Shown here in pieces: positions 7,193 to 24,037 of a stretch of DNA of 64,000 nucleotides. Every line of letters begins with the position of its first letter. Within the stretch, counting starts at the first letter, position 1. The stretch spans positions 1 through 64,000 of the forward strand of contig SVLR01000009.1 of NCBI GenBank assembly GCA_015067785.1. The letters are read 5' to 3'. Both the position numbers and the translations under genes were made by a program. A model generated the notes under the pieces. The model searched no databases. It was not told the origin of the DNA and worked only from the letters and a program-made list of their open reading frames with translations. This DNA is from Oscillospiraceae bacterium (lineage in GTDB: Bacteria; Bacillota; Clostridia; Oscillospirales; Oscillospiraceae).

Positions 7193-8308
7193 TTATTGAA
7201 TATCCAGCTTTTCACAGATCTGCCGGACAGCCTGCGCGGCGTTTTGGAAATGAACGGTGTAGTCACAGATATGGGCATTCTTTGTCTCGGACTCAATGGC
7301 GAGAATGCGGTTGACCTTGTCCGATGTGGAGGCGGCCTTTTCTAAGAGCGCGGTGAGAAGTTCTTTTTTGTCGCGTTTAACATAAATGGTTACCACATTG
7401 GAAAAATGGGTCTTCATTGCCATCGCGCCACAGATATCCATAACGGTCAAAACGTGCTTGCCGCTGCGCAGGATCTCCTCCACATCGGATTTCCGGGAGC
7501 CGTAGGCATGGTGACCGTAGGTGGTGGATTCGAAGATATCTCCGTCATCGCACATTTTCCGGAATTCCTCTACGCTGACATGGCGGTAGCTCTGCTCCGG
7601 GCGAGAGACGGCACTTTCGTCTGTGGTGTAGCTGACCAGTTTTTCAAAGCGGTCGCTTTTTTTCAGCAGTTCCCTGGCAATGTCGTTTTTGCCACTGCCG
7701 GAGGGTCCCACCAGTACCACGATGCTGGGCTGATTCAAAGAAAACTGCTCAGGTCTTACGCTGTAGCTGCCAGAAATCACCTCCACCAGCTTCAGAAACT
7801 CGTCGTAGTTATTGACTGCCAGCATACCGGTGGCTTCCTGATTCCAGGGGCGGCGCATCAAAATGGGATATGCCGCATTGGAACGGAAGACATTGTGCAT
7901 ACCATCGTCAAAGAGGATGTCCACATCGATCTTATCCTTACGGGCGCCCAGCAGAATATGATCCTGGGGGATCTCGGGAAATTCTTCCAAAATGCGCTGA
8001 AAGCGGAGCGTCAGGTACTCGGGCCAAACGGCGGTGGAGATAAAGACCTCAGTCATCTGGGAGAGCTTTCGGACAAATTCCCGGGCACCCGGAATAACAG
8101 GCTGGGTGCGGAAAAACTCCGGATCGTCCATAAACTCAAAAATCACATCCGCCCGGGTTCCCAGTTTACCCCAGCGGTCTACCTCGTAGATGGTCAGCGG
8201 AGGGTCGAACTTATATTTTTCGTTGGCAAGACGGACAGCGTAGGGGACGCATTCCATCAAAAGGTCGTCCACATCCAGGGCGGTGGACAGCCGGTAGCTT
8301 CTGTTCAT
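7193..8308 (-). CDS. Fusion protein: N-terminal HAD/5'(3')-deoxyribonucleotidase-like domain + C-terminal guanylate kinase-like domain
   Basis: N-terminal TALDVDDLLMECVPYAVRLAN and DILFDDG..HN (HAD); C-terminal VLVGPSGSGKNDIARELL P-loop, LVSYTTDESAVSRPEQSYRHVSVEEFRKM (GMK-like substrate region). Confidence 0.78.
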   Translation of the reverse strand: MNRSYRLSTALDVDDLLMECVPYAVRLANEKYKFDPPLTIYEVDRWGKLGTRADVIFEFMDDPEFFRTQPVIPGAREFVRKLSQMTEVFISTAVWPEYLTLRFQRILEEFPEIPQDHILLGARKDKIDVDILFDDGMHNVFRSNAAYPILMRRPWNQEATGMLAVNNYDEFLKLVEVISGSYSVRPEQFSLNQPSIVVLVGPSGSGKNDIARELLKKSDRFEKLVSYTTDESAVSRPEQSYRHVSVEEFRKMCDDGDIFESTTYGHHAYGSRKSDVEEILRSGKHVLTVMDICGAMAMKTHFSNVVTIYVKRDKKELLTALLEKAASTSDKVNRILAIESETKNAHICDYTVHFQNAAQAVRQICEKLDIQ

Positions 8309-10815: not shown

Positions 10816-13023
10816 ATGAGCATGAAGAAACTCCTTTCCCTGGCACTTGCTTTCATCATGGTCCTCGGCGTACTTGCAGGCTGCAAGCCCGAAGAAGAAA
10901 GCATTTATCAACCTTTTGATCCTGCTGACGTTGTCGAGCACACGGATCACACCTCTGTCTATGAGACAGTCGGTTCCAAGGTGACCATCGATATGGTCGA
11001 GGAAGACGATATGGGCCTGGCTTTCGCCACTGTTGACGGCGTAAAGTACGAGCTCGGTATGGACTTCCTGTCCTATGCAATGGTTTACAACTGCTCCGTT
11101 CCCGAAGGCAGCACCAAGTACACCACGCAGGAAGATGTCTTCAACGAATGGTGGAAGCTGTACATCCAGCGCTGGAACTACCTGGCTCCCGAAGTTCCCC
11201 TGTACTCCAACCAGTACTTCGATCTGTACAATGCTAAGATCGAGAACTTTGTAACCACTCCCTACTGGTCTCCCGCTGACGCTATCGTCGCCGCTACCAT
11301 CAAGGAAGGCGCTGCTAACTCTGTCATCCTGGGTTCTTCTACCGATCTGGGCGGTTATTTCCGTAACTCCTCTTGGGGTAAGGCTTCTCCCGCTTCTTCC
11401 GATCTGGACATCGAGAACCTGACTTCCGGCTACGCAACCCTGCAGACTGACAAGAACGGCGCATTCATTTGGAATGAGTATGCGGTCGCTGAGACTCCTG
11501 TCGCTGTTAAGAACGACGACGGCACCCTGACCTACACCATCAAGCTGAAGCAGGATATGGTCTTCTCCGATGGTTCCAAGATCAACGCTAAGAACTACAT
11601 CGCTGCTACTTTGGCCAACTCCACTGTTGTTGGCGCTGCTGCTGGCGGCACCGGCAAGAGCGGCCAAATTCTGGTTGGCTACGATGCATTCTATGCTTAC
11701 GACGGCACCAATGCTTCTGCTGAGGGCGTTTCCAAGTACTTCTCCGGCATTAAGCTGATCGATGACTACACCTTCTCCGTAACCTACACCGCTGATTACG
11801 CTGACTACTACTACGTAATGAGCTACGCTTCCTTCGCTCCCTCTCCTATGGCTCTGTACCTGGGCGAGAATACCATTGAAGTTGCTGAAGACGGCTCTGT
11901 GGCTCTGTCCGACGGCTTCTATGCTAAGACCAAGAAGGACGGCGCTGATGTTTACGTTATGGCTGACATCATCAATGCCAACCTGAAGTGGAACTCCAAC
12001 CTGCCCTACTCCGGTCCTTACGTAGTTTCTGACTACAACGAATCCACCAATGTTGCAACTCTCACCCTTAACCCCAACTACCCCGGCGACACCGCCCGCG
12101 GTAAAGCAAGCATCCAGACCATCACCTACGTAAAGATGGTTGAAGAGACCCAGACCGATATGTTCAAGAACGGCGAGATCGACGTTCTGGCCGGCGTTAC
12201 CGGCGGCGACGAGACCAAGGCTGCTCTGGAGCTGGTCAAGTCCGATCCCAGCAAGTATGCTGAGACTCACTACGACCGTGCCGGTTACGGCAAGATCGGT
12301 TTCCGCGCCGACTTTGGTCCCACCGCTATGATCGAGGTTCGTCAGGCTATTATGTACACCATCAACCGTCCTGAGTTTGCTCAGACCTTCACCGGCGGCT
12401 ACGGCGCTGTTGTTCACGGTCCCTACTATGAGAAGTACTCTGCATTTATGGCTGTTAAGGACGAGATCAAGCTGAACACCTACGATTACTCCGCTGACTC
12501 CGCTATCGAAGTTCTGGAGGCGGGCGGCTGGATCTACAACGATAAGGGCGAAGCTTTTGAGGCTGGCAAGGATGCTGTCCGTTACAAGAAGCTATCCGGC
12601 TATGAAAAGTCCGAGGAGAACCTGAAGTTCGAGACTGTTGACGGCAAGTACAAGACCGTTAAGATCGACGGCGAGTACTATATGCCTCTGGCTATCAACT
12701 GGTTCGGCACCCAGCCCAACACGGTTACCGACCAGCTGATCACTGCATGGCAGACTAACCCCGTTGCCACTACCCAGATCGGTATGTATATCCACTACTC
12801 CTCCACCGACTTTATGACCGGTGTTTATGGCGAGCTGCAGCGCAGCGAGGGCGACGGCTACAACGGCGTTCCCAAGCTGAATGCTATCAACTTTGCTACC
12901 GGCTTCACTTCCGCTATGTACGACTATAGCTGGAACTGGACCATCGATCCTGAACTGATCGCTGTCGGTTACTCCGTCTGCTACATCCGTGATGCTGCCG
13001 ACTATATGGAGAACTACAAGTAA
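10816..13023 (+). CDS. Oligopeptide/dipeptide-type ABC solute-binding lipoprotein (SBP_bac_5)
   Basis: MSMKKLLSLALAFIMVLGVLAGC lipobox; LTYTIKLKQDMVFSDGSKINAKNYI; VRQAIMYTINRPEFAQ; upstream SD GGAGG. Confidence 0.87.
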   Translation: MSMKKLLSLALAFIMVLGVLAGCKPEEESIYQPFDPADVVEHTDHTSVYETVGSKVTIDMVEEDDMGLAFATVDGVKYELGMDFLSYAMVYNCSVPEGSTKYTTQEDVFNEWWKLYIQRWNYLAPEVPLYSNQYFDLYNAKIENFVTTPYWSPADAIVAATIKEGAANSVILGSSTDLGGYFRNSSWGKASPASSDLDIENLTSGYATLQTDKNGAFIWNEYAVAETPVAVKNDDGTLTYTIKLKQDMVFSDGSKINAKNYIAATLANSTVVGAAAGGTGKSGQILVGYDAFYAYDGTNASAEGVSKYFSGIKLIDDYTFSVTYTADYADYYYVMSYASFAPSPMALYLGENTIEVAEDGSVALSDGFYAKTKKDGADVYVMADIINANLKWNSNLPYSGPYVVSDYNESTNVATLTLNPNYPGDTARGKASIQTITYVKMVEETQTDMFKNGEIDVLAGVTGGDETKAALELVKSDPSKYAETHYDRAGYGKIGFRADFGPTAMIEVRQAIMYTINRPEFAQTFTGGYGAVVHGPYYEKYSAFMAVKDEIKLNTYDYSADSAIEVLEAGGWIYNDKGEAFEAGKDAVRYKKLSGYEKSEENLKFETVDGKYKTVKIDGEYYMPLAINWFGTQPNTVTDQLITAWQTNPVATTQIGMYIHYSSTDFMTGVYGELQRSEGDGYNGVPKLNAINFATGFTSAMYDYSWNWTIDPELIAVGYSVCYIRDAADYMENYK

Positions 13024-13504: not shown

Positions 13505-14536
13505 ATGGGCAAGTATATCTTAAAGCGTATTGCTTATATCGTACTTGTTTTCTTTATCCTATCGTTTTTAATCTTTATGATCTACAATATGCTGCCGATT
13601 GACAAGGCAGCCCAGGTAGCTACCGAGGAGGCCAAGGCCTATAAAGGCCCCAATCCCAAGGAATACTATGAAGAGCGCTATGAATACTGGCAAAAGCGCT
13701 ACGGCACAGATGGCACTAAGTTCGAGCGCTATCTGCGCTGGCTCGGATTGATGAAGCTGACGGACGGTGGCTACAACGGCATTCTGCAGGGTAATTTTGG
13801 CGAGTCTACGCAACAGGGCAAACCTGTCGCGGAGATGATCGTTGAGCCGATGAAGAACACCATCTTTATCAATATTTTTGCTACCATTCTGGCGCTGGGG
13901 ATTACCATTCCTCTTGGTATTTTCTGCGCCGTCAAGCGGGGCAGTAAGCGGGATGTTGGCGTACAGGTGGGTACGCTAATCGGCTACAGTATTCCTACCT
14001 TCATCATTGCCATCGTCTTTATTTGGCTGTTTTCCATTATTTTAGGTTGGTTCCCTGTCTCCGGTATGCAGACTGCCGGCTCGCTTGAATGGTCTGCGTC
14101 TGCCCAGTTCTGGGACAGAATGTACCATCTTGCGCTGCCGCTGATCGTTATGACTTTCTGCTCCTTAGGTGGTATGACCCGTTTTGTCCGTGCTTCTATG
14201 ATTGAAGCGCTGAGTATGGACTGCATCCGCACTGCCCGGGCAAAGGGCCTGCGGGAAAAGGTGGTCATCTACTCCCATGCATGGCGCAACGCTCTGCTGC
14301 CTATTACCACCCTGATTATTGGCTGGTTCTTAGGTATCTTCAGCGGCTCGCTGATGATCGAAAATATCTTTGCGCTTAACGGTATTGGCCGTACCTACAA
14401 TATGGCGCTGATGGCAAACGATAACGAGGTCGTGCTGGCGCTGCAGATGTTCTATATTACCATTGCACTTTTCGGAAACCTGCTGATCGACCTGGTCTAC
14501 GGCCTTGTGGATCCCCGTGTCCGGGTCAATAAATAA
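13505..14536 (+). CDS. Oligopeptide ABC permease, OppB/DppB family, with extended first extracytoplasmic loop
   Basis: MGKYILKRIAYIVLVFFILSFLIFMI start with upstream GGAGG; EALSMDCIRTARAKGLREKVVIYSHAWRNALLPI. Confidence 0.9.
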   Translation: MGKYILKRIAYIVLVFFILSFLIFMIYNMLPIDKAAQVATEEAKAYKGPNPKEYYEERYEYWQKRYGTDGTKFERYLRWLGLMKLTDGGYNGILQGNFGESTQQGKPVAEMIVEPMKNTIFINIFATILALGITIPLGIFCAVKRGSKRDVGVQVGTLIGYSIPTFIIAIVFIWLFSIILGWFPVSGMQTAGSLEWSASAQFWDRMYHLALPLIVMTFCSLGGMTRFVRASMIEALSMDCIRTARAKGLREKVVIYSHAWRNALLPITTLIIGWFLGIFSGSLMIENIFALNGIGRTYNMALMANDNEVVLALQMFYITIALFGNLLIDLVYGLVDPRVRVNK

Positions 14537-14551
14537 GGGAGGACAGTATTT

Positions 14552-16486
14552 ATGGCGAATAAAGAAAAAAAGAATACTGTGTTTTCTACCCTTGCCCGCT
14601 GGGGTAAGCGGATGTTCTTTGGCGCCAGCAAGGAGCTGAGCGACGAGGAAAGATTTGCTGTTGAAAACATTGAAAGCCCTTCTGTTATGGCAGTAAAGGC
14701 TTTCTTCCGCCGAAAAATAGCAGTGGCCGCATTGATCCTTTTGGTAAGCCTGTTCCTGTTTGTTTTCATCGGCCCGGAAATTTGGCCTATGGATGTGAAC
14801 TATACAGACCCGCTGCAGGCGAACATTGCGCCCAACTACACATTCCTGAAGGTTCCCTCTGAATTAGCCGGAAACATTCGGGATATCAGCGGCTTCGGCG
14901 GCTTCACTGTGGGTGTCAGCAATGACAATACCCTTTATATTTGGGGCAATAAAGTGGACAACCTGTCCAAGGTTGACTATAGTAAATTCCCGGCTGAGAT
15001 CCAGCCCGGTAAGGTGGCCTATGCGGCTGCCGGTTCTGATCACATCATTGCCATCACCACCGACGGCAAGGTCGTGGGCTGGGGTAATAACGGCAACGGC
15101 CAGTACGGTATGCTGGCCAGTCCCGACGATCCTTATATTCAGATGCCTGACGAGCTGATGCACGGCACTATTGACCCCAATCAGGTGCAGCAACTGATTT
15201 GCGGTTACCAGTGTACAGTTCTTGTTATGAAGGACGGCACTACCTATGCCTGGGGCAACAAAAATGCTATGCTAAGCCTGCCAGAGGTCACGGTAAAGTT
15301 TTCTGACGGTGTCCAAAAGGTGGCGCTGACCAATTACTATGCGCTGATGCTGATGGAAGATGGTACGGTTACCGGCGGTTCCACCCTGTCTTTCCAGATG
15401 GTTTCTGCTACTAACTCCGCTACCGGAACTGTAAGAAACCTGAAGGCGTACCTGGAGGGTAAGACTGCGGTGGATATTGCGGCTACTAATAACTGCTATG
15501 CAGCGGTTCTCAGCGACGGCAGTATCGTTGCCTGGGGCGCTGCCCAATATGGCGAAAAGGATGTACCTGCTGCTCCCGAGGGAGAGAAGTATGTCTCTGT
15601 TAAGGCCGGTACCCGGCACTTTGTGGCGCTGACCGATAAGGACACCGTTGTGTCTTGGGGTCACAATGACCACGGTCAGACGAATCTCACCGGAAAGACT
15701 GCTGATGACATCTTTGTCGGCGCAAAGCAGACCTATCTTGTGGATGAAAATGACGATCTGACGGATAAGGCCGGCTTCAAGGGCTACCTGATGGGTACGG
15801 ATAAGAGCGGTCGTGACGTATTTACCCGTATTGTTCACGGCGGTAAGATGACCATGACCATCGGCGCGGTTGCCGTTATCGTCTCTACCATTATTGCCAT
15901 CATCGTTGGCTGTATCTCCGGATACTTTGGCGGTTGGGTGGATATGCTGTTGATGCGTGTGACGGAGATTTTCTCTGCCATTCCGTTCCTGCCCTTTGCA
16001 ATGATGCTTTCCTTTGTCATTCGTACAATGCCCATTGGTGAGACTACCCGTATCTTTATCATAATGGTTATGCTGGGTATTCTGAGCTGGACTGGCCTTG
16101 CCAGAATGATCCGCGCCCAGGTGCTTGCCGAGCGTGAAAAGGAATTTGTTATTGCGGCTAAGAGTATGGGTATCAAGGAGACCCGGATCGCCTTTAAGCA
16201 TATTCTGCCCAACGTTATCTCTATCATTTTAGTTAACGTTACGCTGGACTTTGCCGGCTGTCTGTTGACGGAATCCAGCCTGTCTTACCTGGGCTTCGGT
16301 GTTCAGCAGCCTCAGCCTACCTGGGGCAATATGCTCGACGGTGCCAACAACTCCATCGTTATTCAGAACTACTGGTGGCAGTGGGTATTCCCCGCCATCT
16401 TCCTGTCCCTCGCAACAATCAGCATTAATATTATTGGCGATACGCTCCGGGATGTTCTCGATCCCAAGAGCAGCCAGGAGAAATAA
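14552..16486 (+). CDS. Oligopeptide ABC permease, OppC/DppC family, containing an inserted RCC1-like repeat domain (about 14873-15751)
   Basis: C-terminal DppC core GTDKSGRDVFTRIVHGGKMTMTIGAV and EFVIAAKSMGIKETRIAFKHILPNV; insertion with repeats HIIAITTDGKVVGWGNNGNGQYG, CTVLVMKDGTTYAWGN, CYAAVLSDGSIVAWGAAQYG, HFVALTDKDTVVSWGHNDHGQ. Confidence 0.9.
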   Translation: MANKEKKNTVFSTLARWGKRMFFGASKELSDEERFAVENIESPSVMAVKAFFRRKIAVAALILLVSLFLFVFIGPEIWPMDVNYTDPLQANIAPNYTFLKVPSELAGNIRDISGFGGFTVGVSNDNTLYIWGNKVDNLSKVDYSKFPAEIQPGKVAYAAAGSDHIIAITTDGKVVGWGNNGNGQYGMLASPDDPYIQMPDELMHGTIDPNQVQQLICGYQCTVLVMKDGTTYAWGNKNAMLSLPEVTVKFSDGVQKVALTNYYALMLMEDGTVTGGSTLSFQMVSATNSATGTVRNLKAYLEGKTAVDIAATNNCYAAVLSDGSIVAWGAAQYGEKDVPAAPEGEKYVSVKAGTRHFVALTDKDTVVSWGHNDHGQTNLTGKTADDIFVGAKQTYLVDENDDLTDKAGFKGYLMGTDKSGRDVFTRIVHGGKMTMTIGAVAVIVSTIIAIIVGCISGYFGGWVDMLLMRVTEIFSAIPFLPFAMMLSFVIRTMPIGETTRIFIIMVMLGILSWTGLARMIRAQVLAEREKEFVIAAKSMGIKETRIAFKHILPNVISIILVNVTLDFAGCLLTESSLSYLGFGVQQPQPTWGNMLDGANNSIVIQNYWWQWVFPAIFLSLATISINIIGDTLRDVLDPKSSQEK

Positions 16487-16504: not shown

Positions 16505-17518
16505 ATGGCTTTGCTGGAAGTTAAAAACCTGCACACATTTTTTAAGACCCGTAAGGGTATCGTAAAAGCGGTCAACGATGTCTCTTATTCTTTGGAGCCG
16601 GGCAAGACCATCGGCATCGTCGGTGAGTCCGGTTCCGGTAAATCCGTTTCCGCTATGAGTATTCTGCGATTGCTGGACGGCAACGGCTATATTGACGAGG
16701 GCGAGGTCATCTTCGAAGGAAAGGATCTGACCAAGCTTTCTCAGGAGGAGATGTACCAGATCCGCGGAAACAAGATTTCTGTTATTTTCCAGGAACCTAT
16801 GACCAGCTTGAATCCAGTCTTTACCGTAAAGCGTCAGCTTTCCGAGCCTTTTATGATCCATCAGGGCATGAGAAAGAAGGAAGCGGAGCAGAAGGCGCTG
16901 GAAATGCTGGCGGCTGTTCAGATTCCTAACCCGGAGGCTGTTCTGCGCCAGTATCCTCACCAGCTCTCCGGCGGTATGCGGCAGAGAGTTATGATTGCAA
17001 TGGCGCTGGCCTGTAAGCCGAAGATTTTGATCGCGGACGAGCCTACCACCGCGCTGGACGTTACCATTCAGGCGCAGATCCTGCGACTGATGAACGACCT
17101 GCAGCGGGATAACGGCACATCCATCATCTTCATCACCCACGACCTGGGCGTTATCAACGAGATGGCGGACGACGTGGTGGTTATGTACTGCGGTCAGGTC
17201 GTGGAGCAGACCTCTGCGGCAAAAATCTTTACTGACTGTCCCTACAGCCATCCCTACACCGAGGGTCTGATGTACTCCATCCCCCGCCTCGACAGCGTAG
17301 GAAAGAAGCTGGAGCCCATCCCCGGCGTTGTGCCTCACCCGTTGGCACTGCCTAAGGGCTGTAAGTTTGCGCCCAGATGCAAATATGCAACACAAAAATG
17401 CTTTGAGCAGGAGCCTGAGCTGCTGGAAAATGTTCCCGGCCAGAAGATCCGTTGCTTCTATCCCGAAAAGGAGGTGCGCCGTAGTGAAGAACACAGAAAA
17501 GCTCTTGTCAATAAGTAA
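16505..17518 (+). CDS. Oligopeptide ABC ATPase, OppD/DppD family
   Basis: [54 protein letters not shown]-terminal [11 protein letters not shown]. Confidence 0.92.
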
Positions 17519-19124
17519 TCTTAAAAAGTATTTCCCCATCGCCAAGAGCAGCATCTTCCAGAAGGAGCAGCTCTACGTCCGCGCCAACGAAGAAATTACC
17601 ATCGATATTCACAGCGGTGAGACCTTCGGCCTCGTCGGCGAATCCGGCTGCGGTAAGTCTACGCTCGGCCGTACCATTTTGCAGCTTTATGATCAGACAG
17701 CCGGCTCTACTATGTACTATGGCCGCACATTGGATGATTTTGTTCCTCAGTATGTGCTGAATACACTGAAAAATGCGCCCAAAATGATCGCTGGCTATAA
17801 GAAGCTCTTCTCTAAGGCGGAGGCTGCTGCCAAGGCCGTTGCGGATGCGGGGGAGAATGCCACTTTCTTCCAGCATCAGGCAAAGAACCTGTCTGCTGCG
17901 GAAGCGGAGACTGCATTCCGGAATGTTGTCCGTGTACTGGGCGGCTTCACTGCTTTGGATAACCCCACGGAAGGCGCTGCAGTTCTGCTGAAGCGTTATG
18001 AGATCTGCAAGAAGCTTGTGGAGATCAACGAGCAGATTCGCGACTTCGACGGCGAGATTGCCTTCCAGAACGCCTTGGCAAAGGAACTGGACGCATCTGA
18101 CGAGACTGTCAAAAATGCTGCCAAAAAGGCTGCAAAGGCCCGTGAACTGGCAAAGAAGGCAGAAGCGAAGAAGGCAGCCCTCCTTCCCAAGAAGGAGGAG
18201 CAGGAGAAGCTTCTGAAGGAAGCTGAGGTAGCGGTCGCTGCTGCCCGTGCATTGCATGCCGGTGACGAGAAATTCAATGAGTATGAGGCAATGCTGGATA
18301 ACGGCATCGACCTGAGCAGACTTAAATACACCGAAATGCGGATCCTCCGTAAGGATATTCAGATCATCTTCCAGGATCCCTATTCCTCCCTGAATCCCCG
18401 TATGACCGTTGGTCAGATCATCGGTGAGGGTCTCACCACCCACAAGTTCTTCAAGGCCGGTGACCCCCAGATGAAGGAGTATATCCTGAACATTATGGAA
18501 CAGTGCGGTCTGCAGGGCTATATGCTGCACCGTTATCCCCACCAGTTCTCCGGTGGTCAGCGGCAGCGTATCTGTATCGCGAGAGCACTGGCTGTGAAGC
18601 CCAAGTTCATCGTCTGCGACGAATGTGTTTCCGCTCTGGACGTTTCCATCCAGTCCCAGATCATCAATCTGCTGGAGGAGCTGAAGGAGAAGGAAAATCT
18701 GACCTATCTGTTCATTTCCCACGACCTCAGCGTTGTCCGCTACATTTCTGACCGTATCGGTGTTATGTACCTGGGCAATATGGTGGAGCTGGGTGACGCG
18801 GAGACCATTTTCGCTGACCCCCGCCATCCCTACACCGTTGCGCTACTGTCCTCCATTCCTACCACCGATATGGATGCGCTGAAGAAAGAGCGTATCCTGC
18901 TGGAAGGTAATATTCCCAGCCCCATCCGTCCTCCGGAGGGCTGTAAGTTCCACACCCGCTGCTATATGGCTTGTGACAAGTGCAAGCGCGTACCGCCTCC
19001 CTATGTGGAAGTGGAGCCCGGTCACTTTGTAGCCTGCCATTTCCTGGATCGGAAGCTGGATGCCAACGGCAATTACCTGTTCGACCGTCCCAACACGGAG
19101 AAGGCTGCTAAAGCGGAGGCATAA
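17484..19124 (+). CDS. Oligopeptide ABC ATPase, OppF/DppF family, with ~190-aa helical insertion (about 17730-18323); GTG start
   Basis: GTG at 17484 preceded by AGGAGG; GESGCGKSTLGRTILQLY; insertion rich in A/K/E; then ILRKDIQIIFQDPYSSLNPRMTV, FSGGQRQRICIARAL, VCDECVSALDVSIQ. Confidence 0.88.
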   Translation: MKNTEKLLSISNLKKYFPIAKSSIFQKEQLYVRANEEITIDIHSGETFGLVGESGCGKSTLGRTILQLYDQTAGSTMYYGRTLDDFVPQYVLNTLKNAPKMIAGYKKLFSKAEAAAKAVADAGENATFFQHQAKNLSAAEAETAFRNVVRVLGGFTALDNPTEGAAVLLKRYEICKKLVEINEQIRDFDGEIAFQNALAKELDASDETVKNAAKKAAKARELAKKAEAKKAALLPKKEEQEKLLKEAEVAVAAARALHAGDEKFNEYEAMLDNGIDLSRLKYTEMRILRKDIQIIFQDPYSSLNPRMTVGQIIGEGLTTHKFFKAGDPQMKEYILNIMEQCGLQGYMLHRYPHQFSGGQRQRICIARALAVKPKFIVCDECVSALDVSIQSQIINLLEELKEKENLTYLFISHDLSVVRYISDRIGVMYLGNMVELGDAETIFADPRHPYTVALLSSIPTTDMDALKKERILLEGNIPSPIRPPEGCKFHTRCYMACDKCKRVPPPYVEVEPGHFVACHFLDRKLDANGNYLFDRPNTEKAAKAEA

Positions 19125-19950: not shown

Positions 19951-20382
19951 TTATTTCAGTCCCAGCTCGTCTGCGCTTACCACTTTGATATTGTGGGCAG
20001 TAAGGGCGGCGGTGAATTTTTCCTCGTCGGAGATGCGCAGGACCATATAGGCACAGCCGTCCCGATGGGTAAAGAGGGAATACATATATTCCACATCAAT
20101 GTGATTTTCTGCCAGAACTGCCAAGAGATCTGCAAGACCTGCAGGACGGTCGGGAACTTCCACAGCCCAGACCGGGGTCATAGAGAGAATGTCACTGTGC
20201 TGCAAAAGGATATTGCTTGCCTTGGGCGCATCATCCACAATCATACGGGCAAGACCGTAATCAGCGGTCTCTGCAATGGAGATGGCACGGATGTCGATAT
20301 GGTTTTCTGCCAGCAGCCGGGTGATTTCGGCGAGCTGACCGGTGCGGTTTTCCAAAAACACGGAGATCTGATGAATGCTCAT
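19951..20382 (-). CDS. ACT domain protein (tandem ACT)
   Basis: ISVFLENRTGQLAEITRLLAENHIDIRAISIAE and second unit RPAGLADLLAVLAENHIDVEYMYSL. Confidence 0.88.
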   Translation of the reverse strand: MSIHQISVFLENRTGQLAEITRLLAENHIDIRAISIAETADYGLARMIVDDAPKASNILLQHSDILSMTPVWAVEVPDRPAGLADLLAVLAENHIDVEYMYSLFTHRDGCAYMVLRISDEEKFTAALTAHNIKVVSADELGLK

Positions 20383-20394
20383 AAGCTTTCCTCC

Positions 20395-21702
20395 TTAAAT
20401 CTTGCGCTTGTCGATTACACGAACGGCCTTGCCTTCGCTGCGGGTAATGGTCTTGGGCGCAACCAGCTTTACCTTGGCGGCAATGCCCAGCATCGCCTTC
20501 AGGGCGTCCACCAGCTTCTTTTCGGCGCTGGCGATCTTTGCCAGAGAGTCGGAGAACATTTCCGGATTCATTTCCACCATTACCTCAAAGGTATCAGAGT
20601 TATTGACCCGGTCTACGATGATCTGATAGTTGGCGGGATAGCCCTGCTGTAAAAGCACGGTTTCGATCTGCGAGGGGAAGACATTGATGCCCCGGATGAT
20701 CAGCATATCGTCGCTGCGACCCATAGGCTTGCTCATCTTAATATGGGTACGGCCGCAGGTGCATTTCTTGCGGCTGAGGATGCAGATATCCCGGGTGCGG
20801 TAACGCAGGAGCGGGAAGGCTTCCTTGGTAATGGCGGTGAAGACCAGCTCGCCCTTGCTGCCCTCAGGAAGTACTTCGCCGGTATCGGGGTCGATGATCT
20901 CGGCAATAAAGTGATCCTCGTTGATGTGCATACCGGTCTGCTCGCTGCACTCAAAGGCAACGCCCGGGCCGGAGGTCTCGGTAAGACCGTAAATATCGTA
21001 TGCCTTGATACCCAGCTTGTTCTCAATATCGTGACGCATATCCTCGCTCCATGCCTCTGCACCGAAGATGCCGGCCTTCAGTTTGATCTGATCCCTAAGA
21101 CCCTGCTCGTGGATGGATTCCGCAAGATAGGCGGCATAGGAGGGGGTGCAGCAGAGAATGGTAGAGCCAAGATCAGTCATAAATTGCAGCTGACGGTCTG
21201 TATTGCCGGAGGACATAGGCAGCGTCAGACAGCCAACCTTGTGAGAGCCGCCGTTGAGACCTGCGCCGCCGGTGAAAAGACCGAAGCCGTAGGCAATATG
21301 ACAAACATCCTCCTTGGTGGCACCGGCGGCGACCAATGCCCGGGCGCAGCAATCGTCCCAAAGGTCGATATCGTGCTGGGTGTAGAAGGCAACCACCCGC
21401 TTGCCGGTGGTGCCGGAGGTGGAGTGGATGCGGACACAGTCGGAAAGGGGCGCGCCCTTGAGACCGTAGGGATAGGCCTCCCGCAGATCGTCCTTACAGA
21501 GGAAGGGGAGCTTATAAAGATCGTCCACACCCTGAATGTCCTCAGGGGTGACACCTTTTTCTTCCATTTTTTTGCGGTAATAGGGAACATTATCCCAAAC
21601 ATGGCGTACTTGTTTTACGAGCCGCTCGTTTTGCAGAGCGCGAAGCTCGTCGTAGGGCATGGTTTCAATTTCCGGTTGGTAATACTTGGGCATAATGACC
21701 AT
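20395..21702 (-). CDS. paaK: Phenylacetate-CoA ligase (probable start MPKYYQ at 21693)
   Basis: RIHSTSGTTGKRVVAFYT, YDIYGLTETSGPGVAFEC, GRSDDMLIIRGINVFPSQIE. Confidence 0.92.
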   Translation of the reverse strand: MVIMPKYYQPEIETMPYDELRALQNERLVKQVRHVWDNVPYYRKKMEEKGVTPEDIQGVDDLYKLPFLCKDDLREAYPYGLKGAPLSDCVRIHSTSGTTGKRVVAFYTQHDIDLWDDCCARALVAAGATKEDVCHIAYGFGLFTGGAGLNGGSHKVGCLTLPMSSGNTDRQLQFMTDLGSTILCCTPSYAAYLAESIHEQGLRDQIKLKAGIFGAEAWSEDMRHDIENKLGIKAYDIYGLTETSGPGVAFECSEQTGMHINEDHFIAEIIDPDTGEVLPEGSKGELVFTAITKEAFPLLRYRTRDICILSRKKCTCGRTHIKMSKPMGRSDDMLIIRGINVFPSQIETVLLQQGYPANYQIIVDRVNNSDTFEVMVEMNPEMFSDSLAKIASAEKKLVDALKAMLGIAAKVKLVAPKTITRSEGKAVRVIDKRKI

Positions 21703-21707
21703 CTCCT

Positions 21708-22286
21708 TTATGCATTGGCTCCCAGCTTGAATGCGATCTTGTTCATTTCCAAGAATTTAGGCGGCACACTGGCTTCAATAGCTGTCATCCATTCTTCCTC
21801 GGGGAAGTCAAAATACTTGGAAAGACGACCCATCAGGACTAAGTTGACAGCCTTAGAGGAGCCAGCTTGCTCAGCAAGTGTCAAAGCATCCAGCGCATCT
21901 AAATCAATGCCGGCATCCTTCATTTTGGTTTCCAGGTCTTCCGGATACGCTGCCGCGCCGATAATGACGGGCATCGGATTGATTCTTTGCGTATTCGTTA
22001 TAATCTTTCCGCCGGGCTTTAGGTACTCCGTCCAGCGGGCAGCCTCCAAAAGCTCAAAGGAGACGATATAGTCTGCTTGGCCCTTGTCAATGACAGGGGA
22101 GTAGACCTTGTCACCGAAACGGACATAGGTGACCACGCTGCCGCCCCGCTGGCTCATACCGTGGACCTCGGAGACTTTAATATCGTAGCCTTTGCTCAAA
22201 AGCAGCCGACCCAGCAGCTTGGAGGCAAGGAGACTTCCCTGACCGCCAACACCGACGATCATAACATTTTGTGTCTTCATAATCAT
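21708..22286 (-). CDS. iorB: Indolepyruvate (aryl-pyruvate) ferredoxin oxidoreductase, beta subunit
   Basis: MIVGVGGQGSLLASKLLGRLLL, SEVHGMSQRGGSVVTYVRFG. Confidence 0.9.
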   Translation of the reverse strand: MIMKTQNVMIVGVGGQGSLLASKLLGRLLLSKGYDIKVSEVHGMSQRGGSVVTYVRFGDKVYSPVIDKGQADYIVSFELLEAARWTEYLKPGGKIITNTQRINPMPVIIGAAAYPEDLETKMKDAGIDLDALDALTLAEQAGSSKAVNLVLMGRLSKYFDFPEEEWMTAIEASVPPKFLEMNKIAFKLGANA

Positions 22287-24037
22287 ACCTCCTTAGGGCT
22301 TTGCAGCGCATCGAACTTACACAGCTGCTCACAGACACCGCAGCCGACGCACAGGGTCTCATCTACCTTTGCCTTGCCGTCTGCGATGCTGATTGCAGGA
22401 CAGCCAATCTTCATACAGGCCTTGCAGCCCACGCACTTCTCTGCATCGACGGTAAGGGGTTTGCTGTGCTTCACATATTTCAGCAGCGCGCAGGGGCGAC
22501 GGGAGATGATGACAGAGGGCTCGTTTGCTGCCAGCTCTTCCTTAATGACGGTGTCGCACTCAGAAAGATTGTAGGGATCAATGACCCGGACACGGCGGAT
22601 GCCCACTGCCTTACAAAGGGTCTCCAAGTCGATCTTTGCGCAGGGATCACCCTTCAGGTTAAAGCCGGTGGTGGGGTTTTGCTGATGACCGGTCATACCG
22701 GTGATGGAGTTATCCACGATGATAACGGTGGCATTTGATTCGTTGTATGCCATATTCACAAGGCCGGTAATGCCGGAGTGCATAAAGGTGGAGTCACCGA
22801 TAACAGCCACGGTATTTCCGTCCATAGCGCCCTGCTGAGACTTGGAGAAGCCGTGAAGTCCCGAGACGGATGCGCCCATACAGATGACGCTGTCAACAGC
22901 GGAAAGGGGAGCAACTGCGCCAAGGGTATAGCAGCCGATGTCACCGAGGACGGTGATCTTATTCTTTTTGAGGGTATAGAACAGACCTCTGTGGGGACAG
23001 CCGGCGCACATAACGGGCGGTCTGGGGGGGATGGCTTCGGAGAGCTTTACGCCGGTTTCCCAAGGTGTTGCCAGTTGAGCGGCAACCGTCAGGGGCATCA
23101 ACTCGTCAATGTTGGAGAAATTCGCTTTGCCCACGCAGGCAAGGCCCAAATCCCGGCAATAGCTCTCGATAAAGCCGTCCAGCTCCTCAACAACCACCAG
23201 CTTTTCTACAGAAGCGGCAAACTTGCGGATCTTTTCTGCGGGGAGCGGCCAGATCATACCTAATTTCAGTACGGGGTAGGTATCGCCGCAGACCTCCTTT
23301 ACATACTGGTAGGAGGTGGAAGAGGTGATAATGCCCACCTTATGATCGGCGCCTTCTTCTATACGGTTGATGGCGGCTTCCTCAGCATAGGCGATCAGCG
23401 CCTTTGTGCGGGCCTCCACCACCGGATGGCGCTTTTTGGCGTTGCCGGGCATCATAACATACTTGGGGATATCTTTCTTATATTCCTTGACGCACTCCAC
23501 CCGCTCGCCGGTCTCCACTACGCTTTGAGAGTGGGAAACGCGGGTACACATTTTAAGAAGTACCGGGGTGTCAAACTGCTCGGAAAGCTCATAGGCCAGC
23601 TTGGCAAAGGAGAGCGCTTCTGCGGAGTCGGAGGGCTCTAACATCGGGATCTTTGCCGCCCGGGCGTAGTGCCGGGAGTCCTGCTCGTTTTGGGACGAGT
23701 GCATACCTGCGTCGTCTGCCACACCGATGACCATTCCGCCGTTGACGCCGGTATAGGAGATGGTAAACAGGGGGTCAGCCGCCACATTGAGACCTACATG
23801 CTTCATACCGCAAAAGGAGCGGCGACCGGCTAAAGATGCACCAAAAGCGGCTTCCATAGCCACTTTTTCGTTGGGCGCCCACTCAGCATAGACCTCAGGA
23901 TACTTGGCGACCGCTTCGGTAATTTCTGTGCTGGGGGTGCCGGGATAGCTGGACACAAAGCTGCATCCGACTTCGTATAAGCCACGGGCAACGGCTTCGT
24001 TGCCCAAAATCAGTTGTTTCATTCTGTTTTCCTCCAA
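22283..24037 (-). CDS. iorA: Indolepyruvate (aryl-pyruvate) ferredoxin oxidoreductase, alpha subunit, with C-terminal ferredoxin domain
   Basis: LILGNEAVARGLYEVGCSFVSSYPGTPSTEI, PPVMCAGCPHRGLFY, C-terminal CVGCKACMKIGCPA and CVGCGVCEQLC. Confidence 0.93.
   Translation of the reverse strand: MEENRMKQLILGNEAVARGLYEVGCSFVSSYPGTPSTEITEAVAKYPEVYAEWAPNEKVAMEAAFGASLAGRRSFCGMKHVGLNVAADPLFTISYTGVNGGMVIGVADDAGMHSSQNEQDSRHYARAAKIPMLEPSDSAEALSFAKLAYELSEQFDTPVLLKMCTRVSHSQSVVETGERVECVKEYKKDIPKYVMMPGNAKKRHPVVEARTKALIAYAEEAAINRIEEGADHKVGIITSSTSYQYVKEVCGDTYPVLKLGMIWPLPAEKIRKFAASVEKLVVVEELDGFIESYCRDLGLACVGKANFSNIDELMPLTVAAQLATPWETGVKLSEAIPPRPPVMCAGCPHRGLFYTLKKNKITVLGDIGCYTLGAVAPLSAVDSVICMGASVSGLHGFSKSQQGAMDGNTVAVIGDSTFMHSGITGLVNMAYNESNATVIIVDNSITGMTGHQQNPTTGFNLKGDPCAKIDLETLCKAVGIRRVRVIDPYNLSECDTVIKEELAANEPSVIISRRPCALLKYVKHSKPLTVDAEKCVGCKACMKIGCPAISIADGKAKVDETLCVGCGVCEQLCKFDALQSPKEV

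Follow-up and report, generated by a model that had tools for sequence, protein, structure and literature searches.

The importer operon

The window, by which we mean the whole stretch of 64,000 nucleotides analysed here, carries on its forward strand an operon that begins with the gene for a peptide-type binding protein (SBP), a lipoprotein with a circularly permuted fold (10816..13023, with the lipobox cysteine codon at 10882). This is followed by an OppB-type permease partner (13505..14536; BPD_transp_1 and BPD_transp_1_N, Opp4B-like), an OppC/DppC-type permease that contains an RCC1 propeller (14552..16486), the OppD ATPase (16505..17518; ABC_tran and oligo_HPY) and the OppF ATPase (17484..19124). 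The propeller-bearing OppC is therefore encoded together with its full set of partners and, judged from these sequences, the operon would specify a complete peptide-type ABC importer, peptide being the putative substrate as the SBP resembles peptide binders.

The OppF gene has a peculiarity of its own. In most propeller operons the distance between Walker A and the signature is approximately 280-305 amino acids, against approximately 106 in ordinary ATPases, and from this much longer spacing we deduce an insert of around 185 amino acids (approximately 17740-18290 in the window), for which the window's protein gave no Pfam match. A subgroup of operons, about L025-L048, has a reduced insert or none, and the sampled operons that carry the alternative OppC insert described below lack it. 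In the same L025-L048 subset both OppD and OppF are shorter or more diverged than those of the other propeller operons, and the OppD distances correlate poorly with those of the other subunits, which together suggest that the ATPase pair was replaced.

Two further regions of the window, both on the reverse strand, deserve mention. A single open reading frame at 7193-8308 joins a 5'-nucleotidase-like (NT5C) domain to a guanylate kinase domain. Beyond the operon, at 19951-24037, lie ACT-domain, AMP-binding (phenylacetate-CoA-ligase-like) and indolepyruvate-oxidoreductase-like reading frames, of which the last two frames were assigned by eye; these genes are consistent with amino-acid fermentation.

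An RCC1-type propeller within an OppC permease

The permease reading frame is intact, starts with ATG and encodes 644 amino acids. Its identity as an OppC/DppC protein, proposed along with its length in a preliminary description of this DNA, is borne out by Pfam matches to OppC_N (residues 42-94, 1.4e-8) and BPD_transp_1 (residues 449-639, 5e-32), and by an EAA coupling region, EFVIAAKSMGI, modelled by AlphaFold2 as a coupling helix at residues 531-538. The first transmembrane helix (TM1) spans residues 55-77 of the AlphaFold2 model (14714..14782), within the OppC_N match, and the core that comprises TM2-TM6 and the EAA region occupies residues 409-644 (15776..16483), TM2 itself beginning at residue 423. 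A phmmer search of the PDB aligned residues 406-641 with E. coli and M. tuberculosis structures of OppC/DppC (2.4e-49 for the match of residues 410-640 to OppC). Most ordinary OppC reading frames in this class have a length of about 280-330 amino acids and the one other DppC of the window's genome is an ordinary protein of 283 amino acids, in keeping with the figure of roughly 300 from which the preliminary description had started.

Between TM1 and TM2 lies the propeller, residues 109-408 (14876..15775); that description had already placed an RCC1 propeller in this loop. Of the two RCC1 profiles that it named for checking this assignment, RCC1_2 (PF13540) matched in four stretches with 96.3 bits against a cut-off of 22 (6.3e-28), whereas PF00415 by itself remained under its cut-off (17.2 against 21.7 bits), as did WD40_RLD (124 bits against 150). 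The PF00415 profile gave no match above its cut-off in the window's own genome, but it was silent in the control genomes as well, so that this negative carries no weight and PF13540 was used in its place; a search with the latter returned no further RCC1_2 match in the window's genome. The insert also matched UVR8 (2.9e-24), HERC, RCC1 and BLIP-II in the PDB. AlphaFold2, supplied with 72 homologues, modelled the permease with a mean pLDDT of 87 and the propeller with ~95, the latter as seven three-stranded blades running from 109-114/118-123/128-132 through to 386-389/393-397/403-408, and the predicted fold thus agrees with the earlier assignment. In Foldseek the model matched OppC structures (TMt 0.74), BLIP-II (0.75) and UVR8. 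We therefore predict with confidence, on the strength of this model, a closed seven-bladed fold of the RCC1 type. Only four repeat units had been listed previously because the sequences of blades 1, 4 and 7 are degenerate.

The EAA coupling helix is cytoplasmic in the OppC/DppC family and, since four transmembrane segments precede it, the TM1-TM2 loop and the propeller within it lie on the outer side of the membrane, as had been supposed. For a propeller in this position there is no reason to expect a Ran GEF function, as it is extracytoplasmic and bacteria, to our knowledge, have no Ran.

Distribution and origin of the propeller

The 80 best relatives were kept from a genome scan, and all 80 carry an insert of 298-351 amino acids. 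Among them the gene order SBP-OppB-OppC-OppD-OppF recurs wherever the flank suffices, with an SBP gene inside the operon at every locus where enough flank is available. Profile searches found the propeller permease in 17 of 392 genomes of the class (E below 1e-47, reading frames of 609-707 amino acids), including two single-contig genomes (G024 and G042), in 23 of 297 genomes of the order and in 14 of 399 genomes of a phylum sample, 12 of these outside the class. The many weaker class matches to the A2 profile (E 1e-15 to 1e-31, reading frames of 299 to several thousand amino acids) were taken to be other RCC1-repeat proteins and left out of the count. The clade is widespread in gut Clostridia; of the species sampled from the window's genus, one has the propeller and another, 99% complete, lacks it.

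The window's genome is fragmented (66 contigs, 82% complete), a circumstance that could favour an assembly chimera or a mis-called reading frame, and the preliminary description had asked for a chimera to be excluded. The probability of such an artefact is practically nil, since independent genomes, namely all 80 of the best relatives and the two single-contig assemblies, have this architecture.

When the permease core was analysed by maximum likelihood without the insert (105 rows), all 55 proteins that bear the propeller fell into one clade, with support of 100/99 and in all bootstraps. Because they form a single clade, the propeller appears to have been gained once and then kept; the simplest reading of these sequences is one acquisition, maintained across many Bacillota families, and multiple gains find no support in the tree.

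The TM1-TM2 loop also holds a large insert in some OppC proteins that lack RCC1 repeats (reading frames of roughly 520-720 amino acids). At L112, L113, L118, L120, L121, L124, L125, L139-L147 and L149-L152 we observed there a repeat-like ectodomain of about 200-400 amino acids, in which the A2 profile detected no RCC1 signal and for which neither a Pfam family nor a credible match in the PDB was found; on these grounds the reading of these proteins as diverged propellers was set aside. In the core-only tree their 20 rows stand apart from the propeller clade, grouped among the ordinary permeases with weak support as one clade (73/27). Since the two unlike types occur in separate OppC groups, the loop must have gained large ectodomains at least twice. 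Among 81 genomes searched of the window's own family, the propeller type occurs in 4 and the other in at least 14. Clustering of the inserts by BLAST merged the types through their common TM1 flank and was left unused.

A circularly permuted binding protein

The SBP of the window matches SBP_bac_5 with 105.9 bits against a cut-off of 32.4 and has the lipobox LAGC, but its fold is permuted with respect to the canonical N-to-C order of sister SBPs and of OppA 9p48. The mature residues up to 145, including APEVPLYSNQYFDLYNAKIENF, correspond to the C-terminal end of sister SBPs (residues 608-683 of 688 in L053, for example), and the remainder, from NSVILGSSTD onwards, to the N-terminal start of the SBPs from sister propeller operons. 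The moved segment, mature residues 57-145 (11050..11316), is C-terminal both in canonical homologues and in 9p48. Aligned with 9p48, a profile of the permuted set matches in permuted order: positions 82-140 fall on chain residues 502-560, 168-238 on 21-86 and 356-516 on 161-310. AlphaFold2 folds the permuted SBP confidently, moved segment included (pLDDT 92, pTM 0.90). Foldseek returned fold matches with moderate TM-scores, its sequential alignments being unable to display a permutation.

A set of 86 SBPs from propeller operons divides into 47 permuted and 39 canonical proteins, that of G873, from the window's genus, being canonical. Since one change suffices on a tree built from the region that both forms share (support 94/89 in the careful tree, not starred), a single origin of the permutation is likely, though not proven, and it was probably one event within the clade. 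Two propeller operons of canonical order, L171 and L181, have two adjacent SBP reading frames; a plausible role for such an arrangement would be as the starting point for permutation by duplication.

Each part of the system belongs to a known family. In the literature searched (subscription papers and database architecture listings lay outside the search), we found no description of an RCC1-bearing permease or of a natural, circularly permuted peptide SBP.

Co-divergence and the role of the propeller

We compared the divergence of the subunits by partial rank correlation of distance matrices in 61 complete operons. The method recovered known pairs (OppB-OppC 0.78, OppD-OppF 0.50) and gave a partial r of 0.56 between propeller and SBP (0.46-0.61 on subsampling), against 0.10 between the propeller and its own core, 0.18 with OppB, 0.10 with OppD and -0.01 with OppF. 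With rate-matched columns the propeller-SBP value was 0.45, still the highest for the propeller, and in the permuted clade alone it was 0.41. In the 19 non-permuted operons, however, the propeller correlates with OppB (0.41-0.52) and only at 0.15-0.21 with the SBP. Of the parts compared, the propeller evolves fastest (mean p-distance 0.61); it is less conserved than the core (Jensen-Shannon 0.48 against 0.71) and is variable in blades 4-5; conservation mapping revealed no clear conserved docking face beyond the RCC1 structural signature. Taken together, the co-divergence provides moderate evidence that the propeller has an extracytoplasmic partner, for which the SBP is the likeliest candidate. 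The preliminary description had offered a docking or gating domain; co-divergence over the whole set and in the permuted clade speaks for the SBP as the partner, the small non-permuted subset does not, and it is still as a suggestion that we put such a role forward.

On balance, we lean slightly towards the reading that OppC gained the propeller once, that the propeller serves as a membrane-tethered docking platform for the SBP, in the manner of MalF P2, and that the SBP was later permuted in a sublineage. The propeller, above the mouth of the permease, would recognise and position the cognate SBP lipoprotein, and docking would raise local capture or control SBP release. Attached to such a receptor surface outside, the SBP would later have become circularly permuted in one sublineage, and its lipid anchor would thereby have moved to another part of the fold. 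We infer the contact between propeller and SBP from topology, placement and the correlation of distance matrices. Against docking stands the higher correlation with OppB in the non-permuted operons, and domains that both evolve fast outside the cytoplasm could diverge in parallel from other causes. Possible but doubtful is the fuller picture of an importer lineage with its own SBP receptor fused into the permease, in which tethering allowed the SBP to permute and the anchor to move, producing a distinct geometry of capture and delivery.

RCC1 propellers are generic binding platforms, and the beta-lactamase inhibitor-like case must be weighed: BLIP-II, which binds beta-lactamases via the same fold, ranks with the best matches by structure (TMt 0.75). 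The propeller might then bind a target other than the SBP, whether a substrate (peptide or glycan), a polymer of the wall, an inhibitor or a peptidase that is secreted, and so localise or regulate the importer. Its rapid evolution, its variable blades 4-5 and the fact that the SBP is not its best correlate in the non-permuted operons would all suit such a role, but the divergence of the propeller follows that of the SBP over the whole set and in the permuted clade, and we consider this rather unlikely. That the propeller is far less conserved than the core would also be expected of a structural spacer or near-neutral insertion, which recognises nothing specifically and only enlarges the permease on its outer face or shields its entrance. 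This we regard as quite unlikely, given that the propeller is of similar size in all members sampled, across many families, with the signatures of a closed seven-bladed fold, and that another ectodomain occupies this loop in a separate group of OppC proteins, which suggests selection.

Opp/Dpp-class type I importers are known to contact their binding proteins by way of short loops. If OppC bears a large, conserved ectodomain with a fold of its own, this mechanism gains a new component, and one that would make SBP docking directly testable, whilst the permuted SBP represents a natural experiment in which fold order and anchor position can be set against delivery. The different ectodomain in the other OppC group suggests that the loop is a general adaptive site in the peptide importers of gut anaerobes.

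Comparison with known systems

In the Dpp system of E. coli, DppA forms a cap over DppB and DppC, with a loop of DppB inserted into the DppA cleft (PMC12136057). The window permease has in common with the OppC/DppC proteins (E. coli DppC 8z1v and OppC 8z21, M. tuberculosis OppC 8j5s and NCBIfam Opp4C NF045476) the TM core, the EAA region, the operon order and the OppB, OppD and OppF partners. The solved proteins are about 290-300 amino acids long, whereas the window permease adds a propeller of ~300 amino acids in the TM1-TM2 loop; against NF045476 it scores 305 bits, the cut-off being 350. With UVR8, RCC1, the HERC RLDs and BLIP-II the propeller shares RCC1_2 repeats, the blade signature and the number of seven blades. 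It differs from them in lying inside a membrane transporter, where it is entered and left by transmembrane helices, and in having three strands per blade in the model, with some blades degenerate.

The P2 loop of MalF, which engages MalE in maltose import according to references within PMC8134467, likewise belongs to a type I importer and is a large folded insertion, on the extracytoplasmic side, in one of its permease subunits. Its position differs and its fold is unrelated, and where P2 engages its SBP the corresponding contact of the window propeller is one that we infer. The window SBP, finally, has in common with OppA 9p48, lactococcal OppA and NikA the SBP_bac_5 family, the lipoprotein character and the fold matches, and is set apart from them by an additional N-terminal stretch of ~40 amino acids and by a C-terminal segment that has become N-terminal.
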